Shown here in pieces: positions 12,492-33,426 of a stretch of DNA of 40,824 nucleotides (position 1 is its first letter; each line of letters starts with the position of its first letter). A program made the translations under genes and the position numbers. The stretch is from assembly GCA_026417375.1 (NCBI GenBank), contig JAOADJ010000046.1, forward strand, positions 1 through 40,824, given 5' to 3'. The stretch is from Melioribacteraceae bacterium (lineage in GTDB: Bacteria; Bacteroidota; Ignavibacteria; Ignavibacteriales; Melioribacteraceae). Below the pieces are notes generated by a model that worked only from the letters and a program-made list of their open reading frames with translations, ran no database searches and had not been told where the DNA came from.

Positions 12492-13820
12492 TTAAATATA
12501 CATATTTATTAATTGTTCATATTTTTCTTGTTTTCCGCTTATTTGTTTAGGTTCCCCATTTTGAACTGCAAGATTATATAAATCTTCTAAAGTTAATTTA
12601 CCTTCTTCAAATGCTTTACCATTATCAGAATTAAATGATGAATATCTTTCTTCCAACATTGTATTATAATTTGATTCGTTTAATATTTTTTCTGCTACAA
12701 TTAATGCACGGGCAAAAGTATCCATACCTGAAATATGAGAGATAAATAAATCTTCATGATCAGTTGAATTTCTTCTTACTTTGGCATCAAAATTAACTCC
12801 ACCTTTTCCAAAACCTCCTGCTTTTGCAATTACCAACATTGTTTCAACGAGTTCATAAATGTTAATTGGAAACTGATCTGTATCCCAGCCATTTTGATAA
12901 TCTCCTCTGTTAGCATCAATACTTCCGAATAAACCAGCATCAACCGCACATTGAATATCATGTTGAAATGTATGACCTGCTAAAGTTGCATGGTTTACTT
13001 CAATATTCAATTTAAAATCTTTTTCTAATCCATAATATCTTAAAAATCCAATAACAGTTTCAGCATCAAAATCATATTGATGTTTCATTGGTTCCATCGG
13101 TTTAGGTTCAATAAGAAATACACCATTAAAACCATTTTTTCTGCCATAATCTCTTGCTAAAGTTAAAAATTTAGCAAGATGTTCTTTTTCTTTTTTCATG
13201 TTTGTATTTAATAAGGACATATATCCTTCTCTACCACCCCAGAAAACATAATTTTCACCACCAAGTTTTATTGTAGCATCGATTGCTCTTTTTACTTGTG
13301 TTGCTGCATAAGAAACTACGTTGAAATCTGGATTTGTAGCTGCACCATTCATATAACGTGGATGAGAAAATAAGTTTGCTGTTCCCCATAATAATTTAAC
13401 TCCGGATTCTTTTTGTCTTTGCAATGCATATTCAACAATTAAATCCATTCTTTTATCTGTTTCAATTATTGAATCAGCTTCATCAACTAAATCAGTATCA
13501 TGAAAACAATAGAATGGAATTCCAAGTTTTGTAGCAAGTTCAAATGCGGCATCAACTTTGTTTTTAGCTTTTTGAATTGGATCGCTTGATTTATTCCATT
13601 CTAAATTTCGTGTTCCCGGACCAAAAGGATCGCCACCTGTTGAACACAATGAATGCCAATAGGCAATTGCAAACCGGAAATATTCTTTCATTGTTTTACC
13701 AAAAACAATTTTATTTTCGTCATACCAACGAAATGCAAGTGGATTTTTAGATTCCGGACCTTCATAAGGAATTTTTCCGATACCTTTAAAATATTCTTGT
13801 TCACCTTTAAAGTAATTCAT
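12492..13820 (-). CDS. xylA: Xylose isomerase (class II)
   Basis: Converts D-xylose to D-xylulose in the cytoplasm. The 442-aa length is that of class II xylose isomerases. FHDTDL (residues 106-111) has the catalytic His107 and Asp110, LIEPKPMEP has the metal-binding Glu, [10 protein letters not shown] and [19 protein letters not shown] carry the other metal ligands, and [17 protein letters not shown] is a strong family signature. The ATG lies 1 base after the xylB stop, so xylB-xylA form one transcript controlled from the intergenic region at 15310-15414. It supplies the sink for the xylose made by the GH genes on the far side of the window. Confidence 0.97.
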
Positions 13821-13821
13821 T

Positions 13822-15309
13822 TTAACCTCTATTTAATTGATTATTTAAAATTTCAAACCATTTGTTGTATGCTTCAATGTATTTATAATTTTTATCATCC
13901 GGAGATATAACTTCTAATTTTTTTAGATTTGTAAAAGCCTCTTCAATATTATTATATAAACCTGCTCCATATGCTGCACCCCTTGCAGCTCCATGAGCAC
14001 CATCAGTATCATACATTTCGATTGTTGCACCAGTTGTATTGGCTAAAGTCTCACGGAAAATTTTGCTTAGAAACATATTTGCTTTACCGGCTTTAATTTT
14101 TTCGATCTTAATTCCTAATTCTTGAATAATATCAAAACCATATTTGAATGAGAATGCAACTCCTTCGTGAGCAGCACGTATTATATTTTTAATTGTATGT
14201 CTGTTAAAATCTAAACCATGAATACTAGCATTAATTAATTTATTTTCTAACATTCTTTCGGCTCCATTACCGAAAGGTAAAATGAATAGATCATCAGAGC
14301 CAATTGGGGCCTGAATTGCAAGTTCATTCATTTCATTATATGATAAATTAGAAGCAAAACTTTTTCTTATCCAGGAATTCAAAATACCAGTTCCATTTAT
14401 GCAAAGCAGAACACCAAGTTTAATATTTTCATTTGAGTGATTTACATGAGCAAAAATGTTAATTCTATTTTTAGAATCATAATTTTTTTGATTAATAACA
14501 GCATATATAACACCGGAAGTACCAGCGGTTGCAGCAACTTCACCAGCATTTAAAACATTTAGTGATAAAGCATTATTTGGTTGATCGCCAGCTCTATAAC
14601 TAACTATTGCTTCTTTTGAAATACCAAGTTCTTCCGCAATTTTTGATTGTATTTTTCCTTGATTTGAAAATGTCGGTTTTATTTCGGGAAAATAATTTAA
14701 TGGAATTTCATAATAATCAATCACATCTTTTGAAATAGAGTTTTCTTTAAAGTTCCAAAATATACCTTCAGAAAGTCCCGAAATTGTTGTATTTATTTCA
14801 CCAGTTAATTTCATCGCAAGGAAATCACCTGGTAACATAAATTTATAAATAGAATTAAATTTTTCGGGTTCATTTAACTTAACCCAACGAAGTTTTGAAG
14901 CAGTAAAATTTGCTGGAGAGTTTAATGTTGTTGACAAACATTTTTCATTGCCAATTTCATTAAAAGCTTTGTTCCCTATTTCAACAGCTCTACTATCGCA
15001 CCAAATAATTGATGGACGAATTACAGATAAGTCTTTATTAACAATTACTAATCCATGCATTTGATATGAAATACCAATTGCTTTAATATTTTTTCCATCA
15101 ATATCATTTTTCGACAAAATTTTCTTTACAAGAATTTTAAAGTACTCATACCATTTATTCGGGTCTTGTTCAGCAAATCCGGCTTTTGTTGAAATTATTT
15201 CCATTTCCTGTTCAGGATAAAATTCACTAGCAATTATTTCTTTTTTTTCAACATCAAAAATTGCAGCTTTTATAGATGAACTGCCTAAATCAATTCCAAG
15301 TGTTAGCAT
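13822..15309 (-). CDS. xylB: Xylulokinase
   Basis: Phosphorylates D-xylulose to xylulose 5-phosphate with ATP. It is a 495-aa FGGY-family kinase: the N-terminal phosphate loop [16 protein letters not shown], the substrate region [10 protein letters not shown] with IIWCDSRA, the hinge segment [26 protein letters not shown] (described in parts), and the C-terminal ATP-site segment [15 protein letters not shown]. It is the first gene of the xylB-xylA pair and divergent from the Nudix-type regulator, with operator-like repeats between them. Length and motifs are normal. Confidence 0.95.
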
Positions 15310-15414: not shown

Positions 15415-16104
15415 ATGTCACATAAGCTTAAAGAAGTATTAAAAAACATTTCAATTGATTGCGTAATTTTTGGATTTAATAATAATGAGTTGGAAGTTTT
15501 ATTAATTAAAAGAGCTGTTAATCCGTATAAAGATTATTGGGCTTTACCCGGTGGTTTTATTAAAAAAAATGAATTAGTCAAAGAAGCTGCCGATAGAATT
15601 CTTTTCGAAACTACTGGTATAAACAATATTTTTTTAGAAGAGTTTGAAATATTTGATTCTGTTGATCGTTTTCCTTTATGGCGTGTATTAACTTTAGGGC
15701 ATTATGCATTAATAAGTCCAAATCTTTATCATCTTTCAACTGGTTCTGACTCATTAGAAGTAAAGTGGTTTTCAATTAATGAACTTCCAGATTTACCTTT
15801 TGACCATTTACATATTATTAATACTGCATTGATGAAACTAAGAAATCGTGTAAGATATAAACCCATTGGATTTGAATTATTACCAGCTAAATTTACACTG
15901 CCACAACTACAAAAATTATATGAAGTTATTTTAGGGAAAGAATTAGATAAAAGAAATTTCAGGAAAAAAATTATGAAAATGAAGTTACTAAAGATGCTTA
16001 ATGAAAAAGATAAAAATAACATTAAAAGACCAGCATTGTTATATAAATTCGATAACAAAAATTATAATAGATTAAAAGAAAAAGGTTTTGTATTTGAAAT
16101 ATGA
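15415..16104 (+). CDS. NrtR-type transcriptional regulator (degenerate Nudix plus winged helix)
   Basis: A 229-aa protein with an N-terminal Nudix domain and a C-terminal winged-helix domain (about residues 150-229, starting FELLPAKFTLPQLQKLYEVILG). The Nudix box at 47-69 keeps G47, E53, R61, E65 and G68, but I62 and T66 replace two of the glutamates of REuxEE. It is therefore probably a ligand sensor and not a hydrolase. In Bacteroidota, members of this family (AraR/XylR-like) control arabinose or xylose genes by binding sugar metabolites. It is divergent from xylBA, and its stop overlaps the SDR start by 4 bases. Its likely targets are both transcripts from the shared intergenic region. Confidence 0.85.
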   Translation: MSHKLKEVLKNISIDCVIFGFNNNELEVLLIKRAVNPYKDYWALPGGFIKKNELVKEAADRILFETTGINNIFLEEFEIFDSVDRFPLWRVLTLGHYALISPNLYHLSTGSDSLEVKWFSINELPDLPFDHLHIINTALMKLRNRVRYKPIGFELLPAKFTLPQLQKLYEVILGKELDKRNFRKKIMKMKLLKMLNEKDKNNIKRPALLYKFDNKNYNRLKEKGFVFEI

Positions 16105-16940
16105 GTGAGATTAATATGGAAGATAGATATAAAATATTTAACATAGATGGTAAAACAATTATTCTAACAGGAGCTACAGGAGTAATTGGAAGTGAAGTTG
16201 CAAAATATCTTGCTACTTTTAATGTTAATTTAGTATTAGTTGGTCGAAACTTTGATAAATTGAAATCACTTAAAAAAGAAATATCAAATAAGAAATCAAA
16301 CATTGAAATTTTAAAATGTGATTTATTAAAAGAAAAATCTTTACAAAATGTAATAGAAAAAATTATTAAAAAATTTAATTCAATAAATGCTTTGATTAAT
16401 GCAGCTGGTGGGCATGTACCAGGTTCAGTTTTAAGTGAGAATCAAACAATATTTCAACTTGATTTTAAAAAATTTGATGAAACTATAAGACTTAATTTAG
16501 ATGGAACTGTTCTCCCTTCCATAATTTTTGGTGAAGAAATTTGTAAGAATAATAATGGTTCTATAATTACAATTTCCTCTATGGCGGCAACAAGAGCAAT
16601 TACTCGTGTAGTTGGTTATTCAATTGCAAAAGCTGGTATTGAAAATTTTACAAGATGGCTTGCAATGGACTTAGCTTTAAAATTTGGAAACGGAATAAGA
16701 GTAAATTCAATTGCACCGGGATTTTTGATAACTAATCAAAACAAAAATTTATTAATTGATAGATATGGAAATTTAACAGAACGTGGTGAAAAAATTATTT
16801 CAATGACTCCATTTAAAAGATTTGGAGAACCAAAAGAACTTTTAGGAGCTATTTTATTTTTGCTAAGTGATGCAAGCAGTTTTGTAAATGGTGCTGTAAT
16901 TCCAATTGATGGTGGTTTTAATATTTATAGTGGAGTATAA
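16101..16940 (+). CDS. SDR oxidoreductase, probable D-fructuronate reductase (mannonate-forming)
   Basis: A 279-aa classical short-chain dehydrogenase: the NAD(P)-binding TGATGVIG at 23-30, NAAGGHVPG at 100-108, and catalytic S160, Y173 and K177. The C-terminus ends in the usual DGGFNIYSG. The longer glycine-rich AAGG(H/N)xP segment is typical of the SDR-type fructuronate/mannonate oxidoreductases found beside uxuA (YjmF/UxuB-like). Operon position supports that role: it overlaps the regulator by 4 bases (ATGA), and uxuA begins at the base after its stop. The reaction would be fructuronate to mannonate. Whether it also accepts the 4-O-methyl form is unknown. Confidence 0.8.
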   Translation: MSEINMEDRYKIFNIDGKTIILTGATGVIGSEVAKYLATFNVNLVLVGRNFDKLKSLKKEISNKKSNIEILKCDLLKEKSLQNVIEKIIKKFNSINALINAAGGHVPGSVLSENQTIFQLDFKKFDETIRLNLDGTVLPSIIFGEEICKNNNGSIITISSMAATRAITRVVGYSIAKAGIENFTRWLAMDLALKFGNGIRVNSIAPGFLITNQNKNLLIDRYGNLTERGEKIISMTPFKRFGEPKELLGAILFLLSDASSFVNGAVIPIDGGFNIYSGV

Positions 16941-18134
16941 ATGGCATTAGAACAAACATGGCGTTGGTTTGGACCAAATGACCCAATTAAATTAGAAGAA
17001 ATAAAACAAACAGGTGTAAGTGGAATAGTTACTGCATTACATCATATTCCTGTTGGCGAAGTTTGGTCAATTGATGAAATTCAAAAAAGAAAATCACTTA
17101 TTGAAAATCATAATTTAAAATGGTCTGTAGTTGAAAGTTTACCAATTCATGAAGATATAAAAAAAAGAGAAAGTAACTTTTCTAAGTACATAGAGAATTA
17201 TAAAACATCACTAATAAATCTTTCTAAATGTGGTATTGATACTGTTTGTTATAATTTTATGCCAGTACTTGATTGGTCAAGAACAAACCTGCGAGTAATT
17301 TATTCTGATGGTTCAATTACCACAAAATTTGATAAACATGTATTTGCTGCTTTCGATTTATTTATTCTTAAAAGAAAAAATGCTGAAAAAGATTATTCAC
17401 AATCAGAGTTTAAAAAAGCAGAAGATTTCTTTTTATCACTAAATGAAAAAGATAAACAAGAATTAATTGATACAATTCTTTTAGGTTTACCCGGTTCCCT
17501 TCAAAAATATTCTTTAGAAGAATTTAAATCTGCAATTGAATCTTATGAAAATATTGATAAAAATATTTTAAGAAATAATTTAATTGAATTTCTAAAAGAA
17601 GTTATACCAGTAGCAGAAGAACATGGAATTTATTTAGTAATACATCCGGATGATCCTCCTTTTCAACTTTTAGGTTTACCCCGTGTTGCAGGAACTATAG
17701 ATGACTTTAATAAAATATTTAATTCAGTTGATTCTGAAAATAATGGATTAACTCTCTGCACTGGATCTTTAGGTTCATTCTATAAAAATGACTTAATTGA
17801 AATAACAAAAAATTTCATTCATAAAATTAATTTTATACATCTCAGAAATGTTACAAGAAATTCTGATTACAATTTCATGGAAGTAGATCATCTTGAAGGT
17901 GATGTTGATATTTATACTATCATGAAACTTTTATTACTTGAACAAAAAGATAGAATTAACAAAAACAAAAAAAATGTTAGATTACCATTTCGTCCTGACC
18001 ATGGCAGATTAATGTTACCAGATATGAATAGAGAAGGAATTTATCCCGGTTATTCTTTATTTGGAAGAATGCGTGCAATTTCAGAATTGAGAGGAATGGA
18101 ATTAGCTATAAGAAGAGAATTGAATTTAGAATAA
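16941..18134 (+). CDS. uxuA: Mannonate dehydratase
   Basis: Dehydrates D-mannonate to 2-keto-3-deoxy-D-gluconate. It is 397 aa with the UxuA start EQTWRWFGPNDP and VSGIVTALHHIPVGEVW. The metal ligands of the family line up as H235 (HPDDPP), C273 (TLCTGS), H300 (FIHLRN) and D353 (FRPDHGR). The ribosome binding site GGAG is inside the last codons of the SDR gene. It ends the regulator-SDR-uxuA transcript and converges on the methyltransferase operon with only 6 bases between the two stop codons and no hairpin there. The preceding step (uronate isomerase, UxaC) and the following ones (KDG kinase, aldolase) are not in the window. Confidence 0.95.
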   Translation: MALEQTWRWFGPNDPIKLEEIKQTGVSGIVTALHHIPVGEVWSIDEIQKRKSLIENHNLKWSVVESLPIHEDIKKRESNFSKYIENYKTSLINLSKCGIDTVCYNFMPVLDWSRTNLRVIYSDGSITTKFDKHVFAAFDLFILKRKNAEKDYSQSEFKKAEDFFLSLNEKDKQELIDTILLGLPGSLQKYSLEEFKSAIESYENIDKNILRNNLIEFLKEVIPVAEEHGIYLVIHPDDPPFQLLGLPRVAGTIDDFNKIFNSVDSENNGLTLCTGSLGSFYKNDLIEITKNFIHKINFIHLRNVTRNSDYNFMEVDHLEGDVDIYTIMKLLLLEQKDRINKNKKNVRLPFRPDHGRLMLPDMNREGIYPGYSLFGRMRAISELRGMELAIRRELNLE

Positions 18135-18140
18135 TTTTAA

Positions 18141-19166
18141 TTAATGAAAATTTTTCCAATTATAATTTTTTCCTACTTTCATAAATGTATCAATATTTTC
18201 TAAAGGTACATCAATTGGTAAATCGCAACCTGTACTTAAAATAAAGTTAGGATAATCTTTCATTACATTCAATAAAGTTTTTATTTCATATTCAACATCA
18301 TTTGGAGATCCATTTAATATTGCACCTGTCGGATTAACATTTCCAATCAATACAATATTTTGAGGAATATTTTTCGCAACTTTGCTTAAATCAATACCAA
18401 CATTTTTTGAATCCAGACTTAATGCTTCAACACCAGAATTGCACATTTCATAAATCAAATGGTTAGAGTTTCCACAAATATGATAAATTGTAGCAATGTT
18501 TTTGTTTTTACAAAACTCACTAATTTTTTTAACAAAGTTTGAAGAAAATAATTTAAACTCTTTTGGTCCAAGCATTACAGCAGATGGTTCTAAAATACAA
18601 ATTACATCAACTCCTGAAAGTATCTGAAGTTCAACATATTTTAAAATTACCTCGCAAGTGAATTCACAAATAGTAATTAATTCATCCTGAGCAATTAAAC
18701 TTTTTAAAGCTGCATTATCTGCACCTAAAATTAAACCTGCAAAAGTATATGGACCGATTACATAACCACCAATTACAACATAATCCGGTAAATTATTTTT
18801 CATTAATGAAATTGTTTTGGTATAAGATTGAATTCTGGAATCTGCTGTAATTTCAATTTGCTTTAGATTTTCTAATTCATCTAATTCAAATTTTTCTATT
18901 ATAACAGTTGCTGATTCATTTATTGGAAAAATTGTATTCCTTCCAATTGCATTTGCTTCAACAGATAAATCCATTAAAGGAAAAATAATATCGGGCTGAA
19001 ATCTGTTATATATATTTCTTATAACTTTAAAATGTTCAACATAATTTTGTTGTGCAATTTTAATTGTTGAATTAGATAATTTCACTCCCGGGAAACCTAC
19101 TAAAGGAGCAACTATTCTTTTCCCATTGTCAAAATATCTTTTTGTTAATTCAGAAATGTTAAGCAT
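18141..19166 (-). CDS. UroD/MtaA-family corrinoid methyltransferase B
   Basis: A 341-aa UroD-fold barrel of the MtaA/MtbA/CmuA methyltransferase branch and not a haem-synthesis decarboxylase. It has the zinc motif of that branch, H229-x-C231 (YHICGN) with C314 (LSTGCDLP). It also has the conserved GGYVIGPYTFAGLILG and ILEPSAVMLGP segments and VLIGNVNPTGAILNG. Family members move methyl groups between corrinoid proteins and thiols or between methylated substrates and corrinoids. It is the last gene of the operon, 6 bases after the second UroD-like gene. Proposed role: transfer of the methyl of 4-O-methylglucuronate (or a derivative) to the neighbouring corrinoid protein, or the reverse half-reaction to a thiol. 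The substrate is inferred from context only. Confidence 0.8.
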   Translation of the reverse strand: MLNISELTKRYFDNGKRIVAPLVGFPGVKLSNSTIKIAQQNYVEHFKVIRNIYNRFQPDIIFPLMDLSVEANAIGRNTIFPINESATVIIEKFELDELENLKQIEITADSRIQSYTKTISLMKNNLPDYVVIGGYVIGPYTFAGLILGADNAALKSLIAQDELITICEFTCEVILKYVELQILSGVDVICILEPSAVMLGPKEFKLFSSNFVKKISEFCKNKNIATIYHICGNSNHLIYEMCNSGVEALSLDSKNVGIDLSKVAKNIPQNIVLIGNVNPTGAILNGSPNDVEYEIKTLLNVMKDYPNFILSTGCDLPIDVPLENIDTFMKVGKNYNWKNFH

Positions 19167-19172
19167 AGTAGA

Positions 19173-20201
19173 TTAAATTTCATTTACAGCTTTCAAAAAA
19201 GCATTTATATTTTCTGTTGAAACACCCGGAGGCATTCCTCCCCCACATGAAAGAATTAATCTTGATTTATCATTTAAAGTTGAAATCAACTCTTTCGTTT
19301 TTAAATAAACATTTTCTGGTGTTTCAGAAGCTAATACATCTCTTGGTGGTAAGTTTCCTAAAAGGGTAATTTTGTTTTGTGTTAATTCTTTTAATTCATT
19401 TAAAGAAATATCATAACCCATGTTAAATAAATTTATTCCAATTTGGTTTAAATATGGTGCTGATACTTTGCAAGGTGCGTCGTTATGCAAGAATTTTATT
19501 TTGGGATTCAGATTATAAATTTCTTTAAAGTATGGTAATCCAAATTGTTTAAACTCTTCTTCACCCATAAAACCAATTATGTCATCAAGCATAAAAATTC
19601 CTTCAATAGAAGGAAATGTTTCAAATTGCAATTCATGCCAATTTTTTAAGAAAGAAGTTATTTTTTTAAGAAGTAATTCAGCTTTATCGGGATCAGTTAA
19701 AATAAGAGTTAAAAATTCTGTTGTTCCCATTAAATAACTAGCAATATTTAGTGGTCCTCTTGAAACAGAAAACTTAATTGAATGTCCGGCTTTTTCAATT
19801 TTGTTTTGATTTATTCTTAATCTGTTTAACATAAAAGGTAGCAAACCATCTGTCTTTGGATTAGGTTCAACTAAATTTTCAATATCATCAGAAGTATTAA
19901 TTATTTTATGAGCATGAGGAAATTCATTTCTTGGGAAAGTGCATCTTACTCCGAATGCAGATGGTTCAGTGCACATTCCATATTCTGACCAAAATCCGGG
20001 TAAAAAAATTGTATCTGAAAATTCATTAATTGCTTTCATGTTTGCATCAAACCATATTTCATCATTCGTGAAATAATCAATAATATCAACCCCATACCAA
20101 TTTGGTAACCAAGGACAATCAATTATAAAACCAGCAGGAATTTGTTTTTTAATTTCACCATTAATTATATCTAATAATGTTTTCCAATTTTGTTCTGTCA
20201 T
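19173..20201 (-). CDS. UroD-family corrinoid methyltransferase A
   Basis: A 342-aa UroD-fold protein, clearly diverged from its neighbour. Its C-terminal zinc region reads HNDAPC (H239, D241, C244) with C319 in LSCGGGMPPG, so H-x-C of the classical motif is changed to H-x-D-x2-C. An N-terminal segment rich in Trp, Asp and Tyr (DCPWLPNWYGVDIIDYFTND) and FLPGFWSEYGMCTEPSAFG could form a polar substrate pocket. Its ATG overlaps the activator stop by 4 bases. UroD-like proteins serve as substrate-specific methyltransferase I in several corrinoid demethylase systems, and this diverged copy is my better candidate for the sugar-ether-cleaving enzyme. That assignment is inference. Confidence 0.78.
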   Translation of the reverse strand: MTEQNWKTLLDIINGEIKKQIPAGFIIDCPWLPNWYGVDIIDYFTNDEIWFDANMKAINEFSDTIFLPGFWSEYGMCTEPSAFGVRCTFPRNEFPHAHKIINTSDDIENLVEPNPKTDGLLPFMLNRLRINQNKIEKAGHSIKFSVSRGPLNIASYLMGTTEFLTLILTDPDKAELLLKKITSFLKNWHELQFETFPSIEGIFMLDDIIGFMGEEEFKQFGLPYFKEIYNLNPKIKFLHNDAPCKVSAPYLNQIGINLFNMGYDISLNELKELTQNKITLLGNLPPRDVLASETPENVYLKTKELISTLNDKSRLILSCGGGMPPGVSTENINAFLKAVNEI

Positions 20202-20953
20202 TTTTCCCTCAATTGTTTTGATGATTTTCTTTTTAAAATTGTTCTATATGTACAATCTTTAATTTCACATTTATTGCAATTATATTCTCTAAATTTAACT
20301 TTCTCACCAATTCCAATAATTCCACTTATAGATTTAATTGGTTTCATCAGCGAAGATTTATTTAATTTAATTCCACAAAAATTTTTTGGTAGAAGTGAAA
20401 ACAATATTTTCTGTTCATCAACATTCCAACTACAATAGCCGGGACTAAATCTATTTGTAACTTTTTTGTTAACCTTTAAAAATTTTTTCTTTATATGTTC
20501 GTGCAAAACATTTGCAACAGTTTCAGTAGCTAATGATAAGATTGTATCATAAATGTATCCTTTAACAGCATCTCCTTTCTCAAATAATTCATTGATTTTT
20601 TTTTCAGCTCTTGTACCAATTGTCAAACAAAATAATATTACAAATTCAGATTTATAAATTTGTTTTGTTATAATTTTATGTAAATAAAAAAATTTATTGT
20701 TAATAAATATTCCGTTTGGTTCGTTATCATAATAAACAAAATCAAAAATTTTATAACCTGCTTTAATATTTAGTATTAATGGTAATTCATGAAGAATTGA
20801 ATTTATAATTTCAGAGAAGTGTTGAGGAATGTCTTTTTCATCATATCCTAACAAGGAATTAATTTCAGATTTATCAATTATTAAATCTTTGTAATTAATA
20901 TTTACCAAAAAAGTTTTTTTATCAATTTCAATTTCATCAAAAATATTTTTCAT
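20198..20953 (-). CDS. MetH-activation-domain-like corrinoid reactivator
   Basis: A 251-aa protein resembling the C-terminal activation (AdoMet-binding) domain of cobalamin-dependent methionine synthase. R168-F-S-P-G172-Y173 matches the MetH R-x-x-x-G-Y AdoMet motif, and LMKPIKSISGIIGIG matches the M-x-P-x2-S-x-SG segment. TETVANVLHEHI is the helix typical of the family. The C-terminus adds C226-x2-C229-x4-C234, possibly a metal or Fe-S site. Its likely job is reductive remethylation of the corrinoid protein after accidental oxidation to Co(II). The ATG at 20953 is preferred to a TTG at 20956; it overlaps the upstream stop by 1 base (TGATG). No RamA/RACo-type activator is present, so this is the only candidate here. 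Confidence 0.78.
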   Translation of the reverse strand: MKNIFDEIEIDKKTFLVNINYKDLIIDKSEINSLLGYDEKDIPQHFSEIINSILHELPLILNIKAGYKIFDFVYYDNEPNGIFINNKFFYLHKIITKQIYKSEFVILFCLTIGTRAEKKINELFEKGDAVKGYIYDTILSLATETVANVLHEHIKKKFLKVNKKVTNRFSPGYCSWNVDEQKILFSLLPKNFCGIKLNKSSLMKPIKSISGIIGIGEKVKFREYNCNKCEIKDCTYRTILKRKSSKQLREK

Positions 20954-21834
20954 CAATTTTTTATTACTCTTACTATAGCTTTAATATGATCCGGCGTAGT
21001 ACCACAACAACCGCCAATAATATTTGCACCTGCTTCAACTAATTTTGGAACAAAATTACCCATAATTTCCGGAGTATCAGGGTATTCTATAATATTATTG
21101 TTAAAGATTGGTAATCCTGCATTTGCATGAACAAGAATTGGAATTGTTGAATTATATTTTCTCAACTCTTTTACAATATCAATCATTAATTCAAATCCGA
21201 TTCCACAATTTGTACCAATAACATCTGCATTAACTTCCAATATTGCATCTATAACTTCTTTTGGTGAAACACCCATTATAGTTTTAAATTCATTATTAGC
21301 AACTTTATCAAAAGTAAAAGTACAAGCAACCTCTAAATTAGTTGCATCTTTTGCGGCTTTAACAGCAATTTTGGCTTCATTAATATCTGTCATAGTTTCT
21401 ATACAAATTGCATCAACTCCACCACTCATTAATGCTTTTGCCTGAAGAAAAAATCCATCATATAATTCGCTTTCGGTAATTTCATTCATAATCAACATTG
21501 CTCCGGTTGGGCCAATAGATCCTAAAACATAAATATTTTCTCCAGCGGCTTCCCGTGAAATTAACGCAGCTTGTTTATTTATTTCAAAAGCATTTTCACT
21601 TAAATCAAAATGTTTTAGTTTATATGGGCTACCACCGAAACTATTTGTTAAAATAATATCAGAGCCAGCATCAACGTAACTTTTTGCAATTGCAAAAACA
21701 TCTTCTTTGTGACTTATATTCCAATATTCCGGACATTCGCCTGCTTTCAATCCACGTTTCATTAAGAAAGTGCCCCAAGCACCATCAGAAACTAATACTT
21801 TACCTTTTTTAATTTCATTTAATAATGATTTCAT
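20953..21834 (-). CDS. Homocysteine S-methyltransferase (MetH N-terminal-domain type)
   Basis: A 293-aa barrel of the homocysteine-methyltransferase family. Zinc ligands are C210 (GTNCG) and C276-C277 (GGCCGTTPDHI). The N-terminus VSDGAWGTFLMKRGL and ILTNSFGGSPYKLKHF match MetH module 1 and BHMT. It would move the methyl group from methyl-corrinoid to homocysteine, giving methionine. The protein is a stand-alone module with no folate or corrinoid domain attached; the corrinoid protein is encoded 1 base upstream. It makes homocysteine the predicted methyl acceptor of this system, unlike tetrahydrofolate or coenzyme M in acetogen and methanogen systems. Confidence 0.9.
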   Translation of the reverse strand: MKSLLNEIKKGKVLVSDGAWGTFLMKRGLKAGECPEYWNISHKEDVFAIAKSYVDAGSDIILTNSFGGSPYKLKHFDLSENAFEINKQAALISREAAGENIYVLGSIGPTGAMLIMNEITESELYDGFFLQAKALMSGGVDAICIETMTDINEAKIAVKAAKDATNLEVACTFTFDKVANNEFKTIMGVSPKEVIDAILEVNADVIGTNCGIGFELMIDIVKELRKYNSTIPILVHANAGLPIFNNNIIEYPDTPEIMGNFVPKLVEAGANIIGGCCGTTPDHIKAIVRVIKN

Positions 21835-21835
21835 T

Positions 21836-22504
21836 TCATACCCAACTATTTAAATATTCTACTGCTCCCTGTGGATTTGGTGAATAACCATCTGCACCCA
21901 TTTGAATTGCGGCTTCCATTGTTAAAGGAGCTCCGCCAACTAATATTTTTATTTCCGGAAATTGTTTTTTTATTTCCTGAACTGTTTTATTCATATTTGC
22001 CATTGTAGTTGTAAGTAATGCGCTTAGTCCAACAAAACAACCGGGATTTTCTTTTATCTTACTTATAAATTTTTCTGTTTTGCAATCAACCCCAAGATCA
22101 ATTACTTCCCAACCATTTCCTTCAACTACCATTGATACTAAATTTTTTCCAATATCATGTAAATCACCAAGAACAGTTCCAATTATAAATTTTCCTTTTG
22201 ATTTGACGGTACCAGATTTAAAAAAAGGTTTTAAATGAATCATGACTGCATTCATTGCTTTTGCAGACATTAATAACTCTGGAACAAAAGCTTCACCTTT
22301 CCCAAATCTTTCACCAATAATTTTCATTCCATCGTTACATGCTTTAAGAATTAAATCGGGTGAAATATTATTTTCTAAAGCGATTTTTGTTAATTCATTT
22401 GTACCAATTTGCCCTATTAAATCTTTTGGAAATGGAGATTCTAAACTTACTTTTCCCCTAGCTACACAAGTTACTATATTTTCTATAAGCTCTTGATTAT
22501 TCAT
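21836..22504 (-). CDS. Corrinoid (B12-binding) methyl-carrier protein
   Basis: A 222-aa protein of the MtaC/MtbC/MtmC/MetH-B12 type. Residues 1-95 are the helical cap (four helices), followed by the Rossmann-like domain with D114-L-H116-D-I-G119 (the His that becomes the lower cobalt ligand), L160-SALLTTTMANM and ILVGGAPLT. The size is standard for free-standing corrinoid carriers. Its ATG begins at the base right after the GH43 stop (TAAATG), which joins it to the glycoside hydrolase genes. It would shuttle the methyl group from the UroD-type methyltransferase(s) to the homocysteine methyltransferase. It requires cobalamin; no B12 synthesis gene or cobalamin riboswitch is seen here. Confidence 0.92.
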   Translation of the reverse strand: MNNQELIENIVTCVARGKVSLESPFPKDLIGQIGTNELTKIALENNISPDLILKACNDGMKIIGERFGKGEAFVPELLMSAKAMNAVMIHLKPFFKSGTVKSKGKFIIGTVLGDLHDIGKNLVSMVVEGNGWEVIDLGVDCKTEKFISKIKENPGCFVGLSALLTTTMANMNKTVQEIKKQFPEIKILVGGAPLTMEAAIQMGADGYSPNPQGAVEYLNSWV

Positions 22505-24247
22505 TTATTTCACTAATTTGTTTTTACCTGTATAATTAACAAAATCATAATATGCTTTGTTTGTACTTTCTTTTCCTAAAGATGTTGAATATAAACCAAA
22601 CACAGTTCCAACAAATCCATAAACATTTCTTGGACTTAAATATGATGCATCAATTGAATCTTTGAATAATTTCCATTTTCCATTTTTATAACCGTAATAA
22701 AATGAATAATTTTTTCCATTAGCTTCTAACTTTAAAAATATTTTTGAATCAGATTCAATTTCTTTTTGTTCAATTAATTCCATATTAAAATTATTATGAT
22801 CTTTATTGGATTTATAAAGTTGAAGTAGATTTTTACCATTCTCTTTTGATTTACAGAAATAGTAAAAATATTCTTCCATTTGATAAGCAATAATTCCAGA
22901 TTTTTCATTTTCGGTATTTGCAACAAATTCCATTGATGTTGTAAATGAACAGTAATGATGTTGTTGTCTTCTTCCAATAAAGCTTGGATTTTTTTTACCC
23001 GAAACAGTTTCTGGTTTTAACTTAATTTCTAAAAAACCTTTTTTAGAATTTAATGAATACCATTTTTCTTTTGGTGTTTTAATAAACATAAAATAGTTGG
23101 GCAAAATTGTATCATTAAAATTTTCTTTAATTGTAAAATCACCATTAAAAGGAATTTTTGCTTTTCCTTTTACTTTTGTTGGCAAAGGATACTTAAACTG
23201 AACTTCTTCATTACCATAATTAATTATAGGCCAACCATCTTTCCAAGTAATTGGTGCTAAAAATGTTTCTCTACCAGTGTTGTAATTATTTTCAGCGAAA
23301 GGTTCGTGAGGTCTGCAGGCTAAAAAAACTGTCCACCAATCACCTTCTAAAGTCTGAACAAAATCTGCATGTCCGGTGCAGGTAACAGGATTTTTTCTAT
23401 CAATTGGTAAATGTCGTTGCGTTAGAATTGGATTTTTTTCGTATGGAATATAAGGACCATAAACATTATCACTTTTAAAAATAACTTGCGAATGATCTTC
23501 TGCCGTTCCTCCTTCAGCTGCTGTTAAATAATAAATTCCATTTATTTTGTAAATGTGTGGTCCTTCAATCCAAATTGGTTTTTTTGAAATATCTACACCA
23601 CCATTAATTAAAATTTTTTCTTCACTACTTACTTTTAAATTAACATAATCAAATTCTCTTATACGAATCGTTCTATGACCACTATAAAGAGGTTTATTAT
23701 CAGGAGCATCACTGTTATAAAGCAGATAAGATTTTCCATCATCATCAAAAAATAAAGATGGATCTATTCCATTAACCTCGGGTAACCAAATTGGATTCGA
23801 CCAGGGACCCTCAGGTTTATCTGCAACTACAACAAAATTTCCACCTGCATCAACTAATGTACAAGTGATGTAAAACTTTCCATTATAATATCTGATTGCT
23901 GGTGCAAAAATTCCACGAGTTAATCCAACACCTTCAAGATCAACCTGCTCAATTCTATCAAGAGCATGACCAATTAAATTCCAATTAACTAAATCTTTAC
24001 TTTGAAATATTGGAATGCATGGAAAATATCCGAATGTAGAATTAACTAAATAATAATTGTCATCAACACTACAAATACTTGGATCTGGATAAAATCCTGA
24101 CAGAATTGGATTTGTAAAATATTTTTTTTGTGCCTCGATATTAATATAAAGGGAGAGCAAAATAATAAGAGAAATTGTTAATAACTTATTTACTCTCCCT
24201 TTGGAGGACACTATGAAGGAGGAAATATTTTTTATTTTTCTTTGCAT
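22505..24247 (-). CDS. GH43 family beta-xylosidase/arabinofuranosidase
   Basis: A 580-aa secreted glycosidase. After an N-terminal basic stretch comes a hydrophobic signal (LLTISLIILLSLYINIEAQ), then a five-bladed GH43 domain with the catalytic Asp in FYPDPSIC, the pKa-modulating Asp in GIDPSLFFDDDG and the acid Glu in WIEGPHIYKI. A C-terminal beta-sandwich (about 370-575) is the GH43 C-terminal type. There is no sorting domain, so it is probably periplasmic. ATG 24247, 1 base after the GH115 stop, is chosen over TTG 24259. It probably removes xylose or arabinose from oligosaccharides; the exact bond cannot be told. Confidence 0.87.
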   Translation of the reverse strand: MQRKIKNISSFIVSSKGRVNKLLTISLIILLSLYINIEAQKKYFTNPILSGFYPDPSICSVDDNYYLVNSTFGYFPCIPIFQSKDLVNWNLIGHALDRIEQVDLEGVGLTRGIFAPAIRYYNGKFYITCTLVDAGGNFVVVADKPEGPWSNPIWLPEVNGIDPSLFFDDDGKSYLLYNSDAPDNKPLYSGHRTIRIREFDYVNLKVSSEEKILINGGVDISKKPIWIEGPHIYKINGIYYLTAAEGGTAEDHSQVIFKSDNVYGPYIPYEKNPILTQRHLPIDRKNPVTCTGHADFVQTLEGDWWTVFLACRPHEPFAENNYNTGRETFLAPITWKDGWPIINYGNEEVQFKYPLPTKVKGKAKIPFNGDFTIKENFNDTILPNYFMFIKTPKEKWYSLNSKKGFLEIKLKPETVSGKKNPSFIGRRQQHHYCSFTTSMEFVANTENEKSGIIAYQMEEYFYYFCKSKENGKNLLQLYKSNKDHNNFNMELIEQKEIESDSKIFLKLEANGKNYSFYYGYKNGKWKLFKDSIDASYLSPRNVYGFVGTVFGLYSTSLGKESTNKAYYDFVNYTGKNKLVK

Positions 24248-24248
24248 T

Positions 24249-27107
24249 TTATTTTCCAATATAAGTTGTTAATGGACCTAAGTATGATTCTTTTAAACCA
24301 CCACAATCAATAACAATTTTTTGGATAACCACACCGGGATTAATTGCAAATATTTTCAATTTATGAAATCCTACTGAACTGATATTATGCTCAGTTTTTT
24401 GGATATTAACATTATCAGCTACCCATTTATTCCAAATCGGATCCCGATTTAAATCCGGAGGATTTGGATTAGTTGAAATTGATACAACTTTAGGTTCTTC
24501 ATTATCAATTGAAATTGCATATTTAATTCCATCTTTGATATTGTTAAAATTTAATGTTGGAGATAAATATACATTTACTTTCACTTTCCCTGTTGTTTGG
24601 AAATATAATTCATATTCAACAAAAGGATTATCATTATTAATTGAATTATAATCTTTATTAACAGGAGTAAAATGAATTGAAGATGAAGTCCTTCCTAAAT
24701 TTGGAATAACTTTAACTTTATCATCAGAACTTACTGAAGAATATTTCTCTGCATCAATTGATATATAACCATTTGTTTCTACAAAAATATTTTTATGTGT
24801 TATATCATAATTTTTAATTGTCAGATTAATGAATACAACTTTTTCATCCGGACCATGAATTGAGAATCTGGATTTAGTAATTCCTTTGGGAGCTAAATTC
24901 CAATCAATGCTTACAAATATTTTTTCTTCTTTTTCTAAAATATTTTTTGGTGATGATAACTTAACAAAAGGATCTAAGTTTTTGATTTGATATTTAAATG
25001 GTTTTGTGCCACGGTTAAAAATTTCAATAAAGTATGTTTGTTTAAAATATGAATCGAATTGTTGCAGATTAATGTTATCATAATTTCCAAGATAAAAATT
25101 CTTATCCCCTTCAACAGAAATTCCCATTTCACTTCTGTTTGGATTTTTAATAAAATGTAAAATTGGTAAATAATTTGAGTCCGGTTGTTGCCAATATGTA
25201 TAACCGATATGAGTTTGCGACATCATATGATTCCACTTTTTATTATTCAAATTATGATAATCGTTTGATAGCTTTTTATCATAATTAAATAAATCTATAA
25301 CTTTATTAGCTAAACTATCTGTCAACACTCTTCCCTGAATTGCATACATTTTATTTTTTGCAGAGTTATAATAAAGCTCATTTAAGTTTGATGATGCTTC
25401 TGTTGGATAAAGTATTAATTGATAATATGCTGATTTATACTCATCTGACAACTTATTATAAATTGTTTTTGCTTTGTCTGTTAATATTTTAAAATCATTT
25501 ACAACTCTTTCAAACTCGTTATAATTTGTTAAGCTATAAGTATCCTGAGAAATTAATTCTGGTTTTCTTCTTGAATTATATTTTGTATATAATGAAAGAA
25601 TTTCAGCAATTTCATTTTTAAATTCTTCTGGAAATTGTTGTTTACACCATTCTTTATAATAATTTGAGATATTAGTTTCATTAAATTTTAGTGGATTCCA
25701 TGCCATTTCTAAAAAAAAGCTTATCGGAAATTCCATTGGTTTAATATCACCAACATTAACAATCCAAATTCTATCTGCACCATAATTGTAAGCTAAATTC
25801 ATTTGCTCCCATACTCTTTCAATTTGATTAGTATTTAACCATTTATAATTACGTGGTCCACCCACATAATCGAAATGATAATAAATTCCATAACCACCTT
25901 TTCTCGGTTTATCATTTAACTTTGGAAGTTTTCTTAAATTACCCCAATTATCATCACATAAAAGTAAAGTTACATCATCAGGAACTTTCATACCTTTATC
26001 ATAATATTCCTGAACTTCTTTATACAAAGCCCAAATCTGTGGAATTTGAGTTACATCTTTTTTTGTAACATCGGAAATAATTTTTCTCTGGTCATTAATA
26101 ATTTTTTCTAACAACTCAATATTTGCATCTTCAGACATTGCTTCATCACCATCACCTCTCATTCCTAATGTTATTATGCTTTCATAATTTTTCATCCTTT
26201 CAATTCCAAATTTCCAAAACTCTCTTAACACAGTTTCATTTTTTTCATAGTTCCATTCACCTTTGCCATATTTTGGCCATTCTTTCCAGGAACGCATCAT
26301 CGGTTCGTGATGAGATCTTCCCATAACTACACCATACATATCAGCCAATTCAGGATTTAGCGGATCATCATCATCAAAATTATTATTCCACATTGCTGGC
26401 CAGAGATAATTACCTTTTAACCTTAATATTAATTCAAAAACATTTTCATAAAATTTATGATTATAGCCACCAAATTTTTCATAAGTCCAATTTGTTAATG
26501 CAGGTGCTTCATCATTTATAAAAATGCCACGATATTTAACTAAAGGTTTATCAACTAAAAAAACATTTTCTTTAACAAAAATTTCTTTTTGTTTTTTTAT
26601 TGGAACATCTGCCCACCAATACCAGGGAGAAACACCTATTTGTTTAGAAATTTCATAAACACCATAGATTGTTCCTCTTTTATCACTTCCAACAATTACT
26701 AATGCTCTTTTAACATTTGGGAAAGGATTATTAATTAATTTTATTATGTAAGAATCAAATTGATTTTCAATTGATGATATATCAATTAATTTTCTTTTAA
26801 TTAAACTTTCAATTAATTCATTTCTGGAAGCTGTACCAATTAAAACAATATTTTTCTTATTAGGATTTTTAGTTGAGAAAGATTCAGGTTTTACATCTGT
26901 TACTTTAAGCATATCATTTTGTAAATCATTAATTACTTTGATTACACCTTTAAAATCATTTTCTGAATAAAAAATCGAAGTAGCTTTTGAATTCTCTACA
27001 AGTGGGAAAGCATTTTTTGATTTCTTAAATGAAATAATTTCATTATTAATATTATTTGCAGAAATAGTTGTAAATAATAAAGTTGTTATAATTAATATTT
27101 TTTTCAT
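24249..27107 (-). CDS. GH115 alpha-glucuronidase (xylan alpha-1,2-glucuronidase)
   Basis: A 952-aa enzyme with signal peptide. The N-terminal domain (KNIVLIGTASRNELI, GSDKRGTIYGVYEISKQIGVSPWYWWADVP) leads into the catalytic barrel (KYRGIFINDEAPALTNW, RLKGNYLWPAMWNNNFDDDDP, GRSHHEPMMRSWKEWPKYG, ITLGMRGDGDEAM). The C-terminal beta domain ends with GFHKLKIFAINPGVVIQKIVID. These are clear GH115 signatures and the length is normal for the family. GH115 enzymes remove (4-O-methyl-)glucuronic acid from internal or terminal xylose of xylan. This gene therefore supplies the methylated uronate on which the downstream methyltransferase genes are proposed to act. No GH67 is present. Confidence 0.93.
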   Translation of the reverse strand: MKKILIITTLLFTTISANNINNEIISFKKSKNAFPLVENSKATSIFYSENDFKGVIKVINDLQNDMLKVTDVKPESFSTKNPNKKNIVLIGTASRNELIESLIKRKLIDISSIENQFDSYIIKLINNPFPNVKRALVIVGSDKRGTIYGVYEISKQIGVSPWYWWADVPIKKQKEIFVKENVFLVDKPLVKYRGIFINDEAPALTNWTYEKFGGYNHKFYENVFELILRLKGNYLWPAMWNNNFDDDDPLNPELADMYGVVMGRSHHEPMMRSWKEWPKYGKGEWNYEKNETVLREFWKFGIERMKNYESIITLGMRGDGDEAMSEDANIELLEKIINDQRKIISDVTKKDVTQIPQIWALYKEVQEYYDKGMKVPDDVTLLLCDDNWGNLRKLPKLNDKPRKGGYGIYYHFDYVGGPRNYKWLNTNQIERVWEQMNLAYNYGADRIWIVNVGDIKPMEFPISFFLEMAWNPLKFNETNISNYYKEWCKQQFPEEFKNEIAEILSLYTKYNSRRKPELISQDTYSLTNYNEFERVVNDFKILTDKAKTIYNKLSDEYKSAYYQLILYPTEASSNLNELYYNSAKNKMYAIQGRVLTDSLANKVIDLFNYDKKLSNDYHNLNNKKWNHMMSQTHIGYTYWQQPDSNYLPILHFIKNPNRSEMGISVEGDKNFYLGNYDNINLQQFDSYFKQTYFIEIFNRGTKPFKYQIKNLDPFVKLSSPKNILEKEEKIFVSIDWNLAPKGITKSRFSIHGPDEKVVFINLTIKNYDITHKNIFVETNGYISIDAEKYSSVSSDDKVKVIPNLGRTSSSIHFTPVNKDYNSINNDNPFVEYELYFQTTGKVKVNVYLSPTLNFNNIKDGIKYAISIDNEEPKVVSISTNPNPPDLNRDPIWNKWVADNVNIQKTEHNISSVGFHKLKIFAINPGVVIQKIVIDCGGLKESYLGPLTTYIGK

Positions 27108-27116
27108 AGTAGTATT

Positions 27117-29057
27117 TTATTTGTTAAAATTATCAGTTCTAAAAGGAGAAGCTGGTAAACCTTCTTTGTTAATTAAATTTGCATTATATGGATTATCTGC
27201 CCAAGCATATCTTACAGCAATTGGTTTTTGAATTGAATCATTCCAAACAATAACTTTATTATTTTTTATTACAGCATCTGCCCACACAAAATTTTTGGAT
27301 TCATCACATATTGCAAATCCTTTCAATTCTTCATTATTTCTTGTTGTTAATCCTTTACCAATATGTTCAAATGAAATTTCAATTTTATTTCCTACTATCT
27401 TATAATTTTTATAAAGAGGACCTGAATAAACAATTTTTTTATTATAAGATTTTTTCAATGCGGCTAAAGCTAATCTTATTCCGACATCTTTTTTATTCAA
27501 AGGATGAATATCATTCCATTCTCCTATATCAATTGTTACAACCATTGCTGTATTTGGAACAGACAAAGTTTTTAATTGAGATTCCCGCAACATTGCCCAC
27601 CAGCTTTCAGAGGGATAATCTTTTGCTTCAAGAAAACTTGCTAGTTGAACAAATAAGAAAGGTAAATTTTTGTTATTAAACTTCTCTCTCCAATCATTAA
27701 TTAAAGCAGGAAACAATGTTTTATATTCTTCATATCTACTAACATTTGATTCACCTTGATACCAAATTACACCACGAATTTTATAATTAAGAAGTGGTGA
27801 TATCATTGCATTAAATAATCCAAGTGGTTTCCAACGAATAAATGTTTGTGAAGGTGAAGGTTCACTTTTTACACTTACTTTGTAATACCAATCTCCTTTC
27901 AAATCAATTTTATAATTATCATTAATAATAATTTCAAATGGTTTATCCGGGAAAAAACCACCTTCATTATTATTAGATGTTACTCTAACTACAAGAGTAT
28001 TATTTTGTTTTAATAATCCTTCAGAAATTTTATAAATTCTAGGAGGCCATGTATAACCTGTAGTTCCAACTAACACACCATTTATCCATGTTGAATCTGC
28101 ATCAACAATTCTACCTAAAAATAATTCGGCTTTACCAAAATTATTAGTATCAACTTCAAAATTTTTTCTAAACCAAATTACTCCTGAATGATTTTTTATT
28201 TCATTTTTTGAATATAAAGATGGTTGATAAATTTTTTTCCAATTTGAAAGATCGATTTCATCCGAATACCATTTAACTTGAGAAATAAAACCTGAATCTG
28301 ATTTACTTAATTGGTTCAACCATGAATTTATTTTATTTCTATCATTTGTTTCGATTTCTTTAATTAAAGAATCATCTCTGAATTTTATTGCTTCATTTAA
28401 ATGATTTGGAAACTTTTTTAAATTATCTTCACTTATCCATGCTTCAGCAGGTGAACCACCTAAACTTGCATGAATAATTCCAATTGGAACTTTTATTTTT
28501 TCAAATAATTCTTTTGCAAAGAAAAATGCAACCGCAGAAAAATTTTGAATATTTTCTTTATCAGCTTTTTTCCACTCACCATTTCTAAGATCAATTCTTG
28601 GTTCTTTAAAATCATATTCCTGTGGAACAGCAAACTGACGAATAGAATCATTAGAATAATTTTTTAATTCATCTTTATATTTAATCCAAACTCTTTTTAT
28701 TGGTAATTCCATGTTTGATTGTCCCGAAGCTAACCAAACATCACCAATGAGAATATCTTTTATAATAATTTCATTTTCTCCATTAATTTTCATTTCATAG
28801 GGACCACCACTTTTTAACTTTGGTAAAATCAAAAACCAGTTACCATCTTTATCTGCAATAGTTGAATAATTTTTATTAATAAAATTAATTTTGATTTTTT
28901 CATTTGGATTAGCCCAACCCCACAATTTTACTTTCGTATCTCTTTGCAGAATCATTCCATTACTAATAAGTTTTGGAAGTTTAACTTCTGCAAAAAGTGT
29001 ATAATATATTAGCAAAAAGAAAAATGTGTTTACTAAAAAAACTTTTTTGTTTTTCAT
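27117..29057 (-). CDS. SASA-family carbohydrate acetylesterase (sialate O-acetylesterase-like)
   Basis: A 646-aa secreted esterase. After the signal peptide an Ig-like N-terminal domain precedes the SGNH-type catalytic domain. The nucleophile Ser is in WLASGQSNMELP, the first SASA motif; GVIWYQGESN is the second; DIGEWNDIHPLNK carries the Asp-x-x-His acid/base pair. Between the catalytic halves is an inserted jelly-roll (about residues 240-390, with GVIWFRKNFEVD), the layout described for CE20-type esterases. In a xylan operon it most likely removes acetyl groups from xylosyl residues. ATG 29057 is chosen over 29087 because it directly precedes the signal peptide and avoids overlap with GH8. 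Confidence 0.85.
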   Translation of the reverse strand: MKNKKVFLVNTFFFLLIYYTLFAEVKLPKLISNGMILQRDTKVKLWGWANPNEKIKINFINKNYSTIADKDGNWFLILPKLKSGGPYEMKINGENEIIIKDILIGDVWLASGQSNMELPIKRVWIKYKDELKNYSNDSIRQFAVPQEYDFKEPRIDLRNGEWKKADKENIQNFSAVAFFFAKELFEKIKVPIGIIHASLGGSPAEAWISEDNLKKFPNHLNEAIKFRDDSLIKEIETNDRNKINSWLNQLSKSDSGFISQVKWYSDEIDLSNWKKIYQPSLYSKNEIKNHSGVIWFRKNFEVDTNNFGKAELFLGRIVDADSTWINGVLVGTTGYTWPPRIYKISEGLLKQNNTLVVRVTSNNNEGGFFPDKPFEIIINDNYKIDLKGDWYYKVSVKSEPSPSQTFIRWKPLGLFNAMISPLLNYKIRGVIWYQGESNVSRYEEYKTLFPALINDWREKFNNKNLPFLFVQLASFLEAKDYPSESWWAMLRESQLKTLSVPNTAMVVTIDIGEWNDIHPLNKKDVGIRLALAALKKSYNKKIVYSGPLYKNYKIVGNKIEISFEHIGKGLTTRNNEELKGFAICDESKNFVWADAVIKNNKVIVWNDSIQKPIAVRYAWADNPYNANLINKEGLPASPFRTDNFNK

Positions 29058-29058
29058 A

Positions 29059-31829: not shown

Positions 31830-31858
31830 AATTAACCTTTTATTAATAAAATTTTCTT

Positions 31859-33418: not shown

Positions 33419-33426
33419 TAAATTTT

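Follow-up and report, generated by a model that had tools for sequence, protein, structure and literature searches.

The window analysed here is a 40,824-nt stretch, contig JAOADJ010000046.1 of assembly GCA_026417375.1, from a Melioribacteraceae bacterium. It contains a xylan operon ending in a five-gene set that encodes, in transcript order, a corrinoid carrier (CorrP), a homocysteine methyltransferase (HMT), a protein resembling the activation domain of the methionine synthase MetH (MetHact) and two proteins of the uroporphyrinogen decarboxylase (UroD) superfamily, UroD2 and UroD1. Judging from sequence comparison, this set is predicted, with a probability of about 0.8, to demethylate 4-O-methylglucuronate, either as such or once isomerised or reduced, after its release from glucuronoxylan by an alpha-glucuronidase (GH115 here, GH67 elsewhere), with homocysteine as the methyl acceptor. 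4-O-methylglucuronate is a major side group of hardwood xylan, and we know of no established bacterial fate for its methyl group. An earlier note on this DNA had described five contiguous genes following GH115 and GH43 genes with tiny gaps or overlaps, which is borne out by the open reading frames (ORFs), the Pfam matches and the gap sizes. All five ORFs are open on the minus strand, and the successive distances are −11 bp from GH115 to GH43, 0 to CorrP, 1 to HMT, −4 to MetHact, −4 to UroD2 and 6 to UroD1 (−4 to 6 bp within the set). The arrangement is more than chance, since other genera show the same order of genes.

The occurrence of UroD2 was compared with that of GH115 (PF15979) in 97 related genomes, including the source genome. 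GH115 was found in 14 genomes and UroD2 matches (E ≤ 1e-20) in 15, of which 14 are at least 67% identical and one (G028) is 27% identical. The 14 close UroD2 orthologues are located in exactly the 14 genomes with GH115 (P = 3.6e-17, Fisher's exact test, kinship uncorrected), which cover three families and eight genera. This co-occurrence supports the suggestion of the earlier note that 4-O-methylglucuronate is the likely substrate. Furthermore, 12 of these 14 genomes have a GH115 or GH67 gene no more than 10 kb from UroD2, whereas none was found in 18 control stretches that surround their other UroD-type genes (P = 4e-7). Two stretches were omitted from the controls, one being part of a UroD2 contig (G012:C136:1-3000) and the other not from a UroD2 genome (G029:C5), and five controls and five cases are shorter than 18.5 kb instead of 20 kb due to contig ends. 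Thus homologous sets do neighbour glucuronidase genes, the opposite of what the earlier note had named as speaking against its proposal. The glucuronidase near UroD2 in G046 is GH67, with GH115 about 20 kb away, and the two genomes with no nearby glucuronidase (G042 and G002) have UroD2 on contigs just 6.5 and 4.2 kb long. The D-mannonate dehydratase gene uxuA was found within 10 kb of UroD2 in 6 of the 14 genomes and in 0 of the 18 controls, and UxaC is encoded in 14 of the 15 genomes with a UroD2 match, the source genome included.

Two of these genomes deserve separate description. The one-contig genome G013 contains a copy of the set inside a xylan cluster, presumably the published Mros2087-2093 cluster of the cultured Melioribacter roseus P3M-2 (PMC3534657); the words "methyltransferase," "corrinoid" and "cobalamin" do not appear in the main text of that genome paper. 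G028, which lacks GH115, has a different corrinoid set at G028:C19 (L054:3114-13724), with CorrP, MetHact and HMT at 52%, 38% and 55% identity and several other UroD proteins at 22-30%. It may serve to demethylate some other methyl ether.

A scan of GTDB genomes yielded 461 stretches encoding UroD2 relatives, of which 80 (56-73% identity) were kept. Their titles name eleven phylum-level groups (Ignavibacteria, KSB1, Calditrichota, Bacteroidota, Opitutales, Ratteibacteria, Fibrobacterota, Neomarinimicrobiota, Spirochaetota, WOR-3 and Aminicenantes), others being plain "bacterium," and at least 11 of the 80 loci belong to genomes also in the 97-genome sample. Within 10 kb of UroD2, GH115 was found at 22 loci, GH67 at 11, either of them at 32, UxuA at 10, and a corrinoid partner (CorrP, HMT or MetHact) at 33; these counts are lower bounds because many contigs end early, and the local GH67 assignments are based on similarity to one Pfam-identified representative. 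The 32 glucuronidase-flanked loci belong to Ignavibacteria, Bacteroidota, KSB1, Calditrichota, Fibrobacterota, Neomarinimicrobiota and four further bacteria. In the genomes of the other 48 loci, GH115 is present in 27, GH67 in 25 and at least one of them in 32 (hand count), so that 64 of the 80 UroD2 relatives have an alpha-glucuronidase somewhere in the genome. The survey for GH115, GH67 and uxuA proposed in the earlier note thus finds all three recurring beside UroD2 in other phylum-level groups. The UroD2 tree intermixes phyla, with 21 label changes where the least possible is 8, which may reflect transfer, paralogy or binning error. Two further neighbours of UroD2 were observed at these loci. 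A protein of about 810 aa with a signal-like N-terminus is encoded just upstream of UroD2 in four Bacteroidota (L124, L126, L131 and L134); its representative from L131 has no Pfam match, and it is possibly a carbohydrate-active enzyme of a new type. A GH88-like protein, named from one representative (L096) by Pfam, is encoded near UroD2, often by the next gene, at L081, L082, L084, L087, L089, L093, L096, L099 and L109.

Among 395 genomes of the phylum, in which UroD2 was counted at E ≤ 1e-60, UroD2 is present in 11, GH115 in 56, GH67 in 65, and either glucuronidase in 74 (hand count). All 10 GH115 genomes of the bacterium's own class carry UroD2, three of them (G204, G275 and G301) in the more distant form described below. 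One UroD2 genome (G437) has neither GH115 nor GH67; its set still faces UxuA, with a gene for a major facilitator superfamily transporter in between and a LacI-type gene further away, a layout that would fit a scavenger of free methylated uronate.

A more distant form of UroD2 was found in three genomes of this sample (G204, G275 and G301) and on a plasmid of Gemmatirosa kalamazoonensis. The three genomes all have GH115, and their UroD2 subfamily (34-35% identity) retains the HND motif described below. CorrP and HMT adjoin the distant UroD2 in G204 and G301, and G204 also has a short-chain dehydrogenase/reductase (SDR) and UxuA nearby; no CorrP, HMT, SDR or UxuA gene was found near it in G275. 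On the Gemmatirosa plasmid, the UroD2 relative (34% identity) is part of an array in the order SDR, UxuA, UroD2 relative, CorrP, RACo-type activase, a 403-aa protein and HMT. The SDR belongs to the D-mannonate oxidoreductase subfamily (PRK08277, 351.6 bits, cut-off 281), the UxuA-family dehydratase is recognised by Pfam (1.7e-53) and falls under the NCBIfam cut-offs, and the HMT shares 40% identity with the window's HMT. The 403-aa protein (L160:19011-20219), located between the activase and HMT, has no Pfam match. Elsewhere, the same plasmid has a GH67 relative (51% identity, 94% of the query) and a second plasmid has a partial GH115 match (33% identity, 63% of the query), and none of the xylan-gene families of the window was recognised in the 31-kb stretch. 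The demethylase and uronate genes are thus tied in Gemmatirosa with none of these xylan-gene families recognised around them, and the link to uxuA and uxuB-like genes extends to the distant form. Because Gemmatirosa is aerobic, "anaerobic," as the earlier note called the route, is possibly too narrow.

UroD2 (19173-20201, minus strand; 342 aa) matches the URO-D family (PF01208, 2.5e-35), and its AlphaFold2 model (mean pLDDT 92.3) forms the UroD barrel. The top structural match of the model by VIA-align is the MtaA-type methyltransferase 4ay7 (Z = 31.2, 326 aligned residues, 2.8 Å), with true UroDs within 1 Z, and the function of UroD2 is therefore not deducible from fold alone. No solved structure of MtoB, CdmB, OdmB or VdmB is among the matches listed in the sequence or fold searches of the PDB. 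The triad H239/N240/D241 (HND) is invariant in 52 of 52 sequences, Cys244 is conserved in 48 and Cys319 in 50 of the 52, and many charged residues are also invariant. In the profile alignment, Gly321 of UroD2 stands opposite the zinc Cys of UroD1, and the HxC...C zinc site of the MtaA type is replaced by HND. We predict from these features and the gene neighbourhood that UroD2 is the ether-cleaving 4-O-methyl-uronate:corrinoid-protein methyltransferase (MT-I). A role of the two UroD proteins as true uroporphyrinogen decarboxylases was rejected, as a separate gene of the genome (at C14) scores 471 bits against PF01208.

UroD1 (18141-19166, minus strand; PF01208, 1.4e-50) is the MtaA-like member, with an HxC...C zinc-type motif. 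By sequence, its closest PDB chain is the methylcobalamin:coenzyme M methyltransferase 4ay7 (2.5e-17); HxCGN is present in 10 of 10 aligned rows and the second Cys in all nine full-length rows. UroD1 scores well under the curated cut-offs of TIGR01463 (111.8 vs. 235.4 bits), PRK06252 (129.8 vs. 244), MtaA (110.4 vs. 400) and MtbA (112.2 vs. 600), and we read it as an accessory protein, perhaps a thiol-directed methyltransferase. At some loci, UroD1 is damaged beside an intact UroD2: it is interrupted in L069 (from 11056 onwards) by one in-frame TGA, frameshifted in L080 (12209-13004) and reduced to a 55-residue match in G078 (G078:C74:66523-66687), which suggests either loss of UroD1 or assembly error. 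The TGA of L069 (genome G004) was considered as a selenocysteine codon and rejected, as the stop falls at a Gly of the window's UroD1, not a Cys (by eye). UroD1 was likewise discarded as the key enzyme, since some UroD2 loci lack it or keep just a broken copy or a remnant, and since G029 has UroD1 with neither GH115 nor UroD2; no other reference gene of the xylan or demethylation loci was found within 10 kb of the G029 UroD1. UroD2 is thus the constant member and UroD1 dispensable, which corrects the five-gene unit of the earlier note.

The remaining three proteins match the modules expected for methyl transfer through a cobamide. CorrP (21836-22504, minus strand) has both B12-binding domains (PF02310, 3e-25; PF02607, 4.4e-14) and resembles the solved chains 1y80 (6.7e-41) and 4jgi (3.2e-34); its base-off motif DLHDIG, of the DxHxxG type, is found in all 29 copies passing the score and length filter. 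HMT (20953-21834, minus strand; PF02574, 5e-67) aligns with residues 10-288 of the MetH chain 1q7m (9.6e-49), its GGCC pair is present in all 27 copies passing the filter, and it is predicted to carry out the acceptor step to methionine. MetHact (20198-20956, minus strand; PF02965, 8.7e-12) is closest among solved chains to 1j6r (3.8e-8), a 214-aa chain bearing the name methionine synthase, and is predicted to reactivate the corrinoid protein reductively. No folate- or pterin-binding module was matched by Pfam among the five proteins.

The xylan operon runs on the minus strand from about 39359 to 18141, in the order GH35-like/DUF5597, GH30, two GH43, GH10, GH8, SASA-type esterase, GH115, GH43 and the five-gene set, with gaps of −29 to 29 bp from GH35 to UroD1. 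The GH115 (24249-27107; PF15979, 6e-156), with a signal-peptide-like N-terminus, aligns over almost its entire length with solved GH115 chains (4zmh, 3.5e-282; 4c90, "alpha-glucuronidase GH115," 2e-216) and is the predicted releaser of (4-O-methyl-)glucuronate. The GH43 directly upstream of the carrier gene (22505-24259; PF04616, 3.1e-93) has a GH43_C2 domain. The GH30 (35797-37698), which we take to be of subfamily 8 (GH30_8), carries a type IX secretion-type sorting domain (Por_Secre_tail) and is closest to glucuronoxylanases (XynC 3gtn, 1.7e-87; 4ckq, 1e-92). The SASA-type carbohydrate esterase, GH8, GH10 and two GH43 genes between them (27117-35784, Pfam) are also on the minus strand, with gaps of −29 to 29 bp. 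On the plus strand are an SDR with the predicted fructuronate reductase (UxuB) role (16101-16940; PRK08277 "D-mannonate oxidoreductase," 315.9 bits, cut-off 281) and UxuA (16941-18134; PF03786, 5.3e-120), the latter above the cut-off of both NCBIfam models (TIGR00695, 484.7 bits, cut-off 199.55). The pair points toward the set, the UxuA and UroD1 ORFs ending 6 bp apart. The adjacency claimed in the earlier note is therefore correct, but not a fusion: because of the convergent orientation, SDR-uxuA are neighbours of the set on a separate transcript. The pair is headed by an NrtR/AraR-type NUDIX-winged-helix regulator (15415-16104, plus strand; PF21906, 1.6e-28; PF19368, 1.2e-18), whose gene separates xylBA from SDR-uxuA and which may control the two; its counterpart in G004 is 69% identical and occupies the same position. 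XylA xylose isomerase, above its NCBIfam cut-off, and a XylB-like kinase, below it (319.2 bits, cut-off 380.25), are encoded at 12492-15309 on the minus strand. Scans of the window for Rfam families, tRNAs, promoters and terminators gave nothing useful.

The C4 hydroxyl of glucuronate becomes the C3 hydroxyl of fructuronate and mannonate, and UxuA eliminates that C3 hydroxyl to form 2-keto-3-deoxygluconate (KDG). Because the methyl group sits on the oxygen that UxuA expels, a 4-O-methyl group would block UxuA or force the expulsion of methanol. The comparison shows the genes, their families, conserved motifs, co-occurrence and synteny; from these we infer a substrate, a direction of methyl transfer, an acceptor and a place relative to UxaC and SDR. 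GH115 would free the methylated uronate outside the cell, to be followed by uptake; UroD2 would bind it and pass the methyl group to Co(I) of CorrP; HMT would move the methyl group to homocysteine, giving methionine; and MetHact would rescue the Co(II) carrier. The demethylated uronate would proceed through UxaC, SDR and UxuA to KDG, and the UroD2 step could stand before or after UxaC and SDR. UroD1 would perhaps pass surplus methyl to another thiol; it is kept as a possible second outlet because methionine alone seems a small sink and UroD1 has a thiol-type zinc motif.

Several observations weigh against demethylation of 4-O-methylglucuronate by this set, or against its generality. The need of the cell for methionine seems too limited to absorb every methyl group that hardwood xylan would supply. 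No carrier gene was found within 10 kb of UroD2 in G046 and G065; both genomes hold CorrP- and MetHact-type genes elsewhere, and G046 an HMT-type gene as well. Among the 80 UroD2 relatives, 16, from metagenome-assembled genome bins of unstated completeness, have no GH115 or GH67 in the genome. Conversely, G025 and G452, of the bacterium's own family and with GH67 only, lack UroD2, and plasmid records contain a GH67 relative in 60 cases, a GH115 relative in 28 and a UroD2 relative in one only. Lastly, the 46 GH115 genomes of other classes in the 395-genome sample have no UroD2 match at E ≤ 1e-60. Not every user of glucuronoxylan thus carries the set, which is one solution among several rather than a general need of xylan users.

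The chemistry that motivates the proposal also allows the first alternative, in which UxuA or another lyase expels methanol from methylated mannonate and the UroD proteins with the corrinoid carrier consume that methanol. The methyl group is on the oxygen that UxuA eliminates, so its release is chemically possible, and UxuA adjoins the set in the window and elsewhere. We nevertheless consider this improbable, as the methanol methyltransferase MtaB (PF12176) is absent from the source genome and from 14 of the 15 UroD2 genomes, and the invariant charged residues of UroD2 seem more than a methanol site needs. An MtaB-type methanol system was rejected because the source genome has no MtaB. The single MtaB carrier is G046, with a strong match at G046:C86:19913-21271.

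Corrinoid O-demethylases of the UroD superfamily are described as acting on methoxyaromatics (PMC8630106, PMC13222342), and demethylation of lignin-derived methoxyaromatics, as by OdmB, VdmB, MtvB and MtoB, is a slightly weaker alternative that we also regard as unlikely. These MT-I enzymes of Acetobacterium (Odm/Vdm), Moorella (Mtv), and Methermicoccus and Archaeoglobus (Mto) work with a separate corrinoid protein and an activation protein encoded in clustered genes, as in the window, where a predicted MT-I of the UroD superfamily (by PF01208 and fold) and a DxHxxG cobamide carrier are present, and xylan and lignin are found together. However, their substrates are aromatic, whereas the neighbours of the set are uronate and xylan genes, its predicted substrate is a sugar uronate ether, and no aromatic-ring enzyme was recognised by Pfam among the 30 window proteins scanned. 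The known systems also use a tetrahydrofolate or tetrahydromethanopterin MT-II and a RACE-type activase; no tetrahydrofolate (MtrH/pterin-type) MT-II was found by Pfam among the five genes, which have a homocysteine methyltransferase instead, and MetHact stands in place of a RACE/RamA-type activase, a RACo-type activase being present in the Gemmatirosa array.

A split methionine synthase using an ordinary methyl donor, and in the operon by coincidence, is very unlikely. HMT, CorrP and MetHact do resemble the Hcy, B12 and activation modules of MetH as separate proteins, and split MetH systems are known, among them the MtgBCDE glycine betaine system of Ruegeria, which couples demethylation to methionine synthesis (PMC12478193). 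The separate corrinoid and MtgE-like homocysteine modules and the methionine-linked demethylation are shared, but the set lacks MtgB (PF06253 type) and a pterin module, and the enzyme predicted to take the methyl from the donor belongs to the UroD family. No folate-binding module was matched in the set, and the link between UroD2 and GH115 would be left unexplained. Substitution for methionine synthase was discarded as the chief function because a 1248-aa frame elsewhere in the source genome strongly matches the MetH activation domain. The set also shares its logic with the choline system of Eubacterium limosum (PMC12155760). The least probable alternative is the methyl-sulfur or methyl-selenium (thioether/selenoether) metabolism proposed for mlp clusters (PMC10418091), carried along in xylan loci, to which the MtaA-like HxC...C motif and fold of UroD1 would point, but the constant member UroD2, although sharing the fold of MtaA/Mlp-type methylcobamide:thiol methyltransferases (4ay7, Z = 31.2), shows HND in place of that motif and a Gly opposite the zinc Cys of UroD1, the genes that keep company with the set are those for glucuronidases and UxuA, and the words "xylan," "sugar" and "glucuron" are absent from the main text of that preprint.

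The five-gene set thus shares the logic of known corrinoid systems and differs in its predicted substrate, acceptor and activase. The demethylation of 6-O-methylgalactose is carried out by an oxygen-dependent cytochrome P450 monooxygenase, which likewise removes a sugar O-methyl group in polysaccharide use but needs oxygen and no corrinoid. Among the matches listed from the open-access literature, we found no published account of 4-O-methylglucuronate being demethylated anaerobically or through a corrinoid, most subscription papers being outside the search. If the proposal is true, the set would, to our knowledge, be the first example of a sugar ether being demethylated through a corrinoid, and it would show how bacteria can handle hardwood xylan's methyl groups when oxygen is absent. 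UroD2 and its partners provide a concrete candidate enzyme with a chemical rationale, the methyl group being on the oxygen that UxuA must expel. More tentatively, at somewhat less than even odds, UroD2 may represent a phylum-crossing family of 4-O-methyl-uronate:corrinoid methyltransferases and a general route in anaerobic and some soil bacteria, in which the methyl group goes to methionine and UroD1 vents the surplus to a thiol, so that wood xylan would give rise to methylated sulfur compounds. The set could also mark glucuronoxylan use in anoxic sediments and soils.

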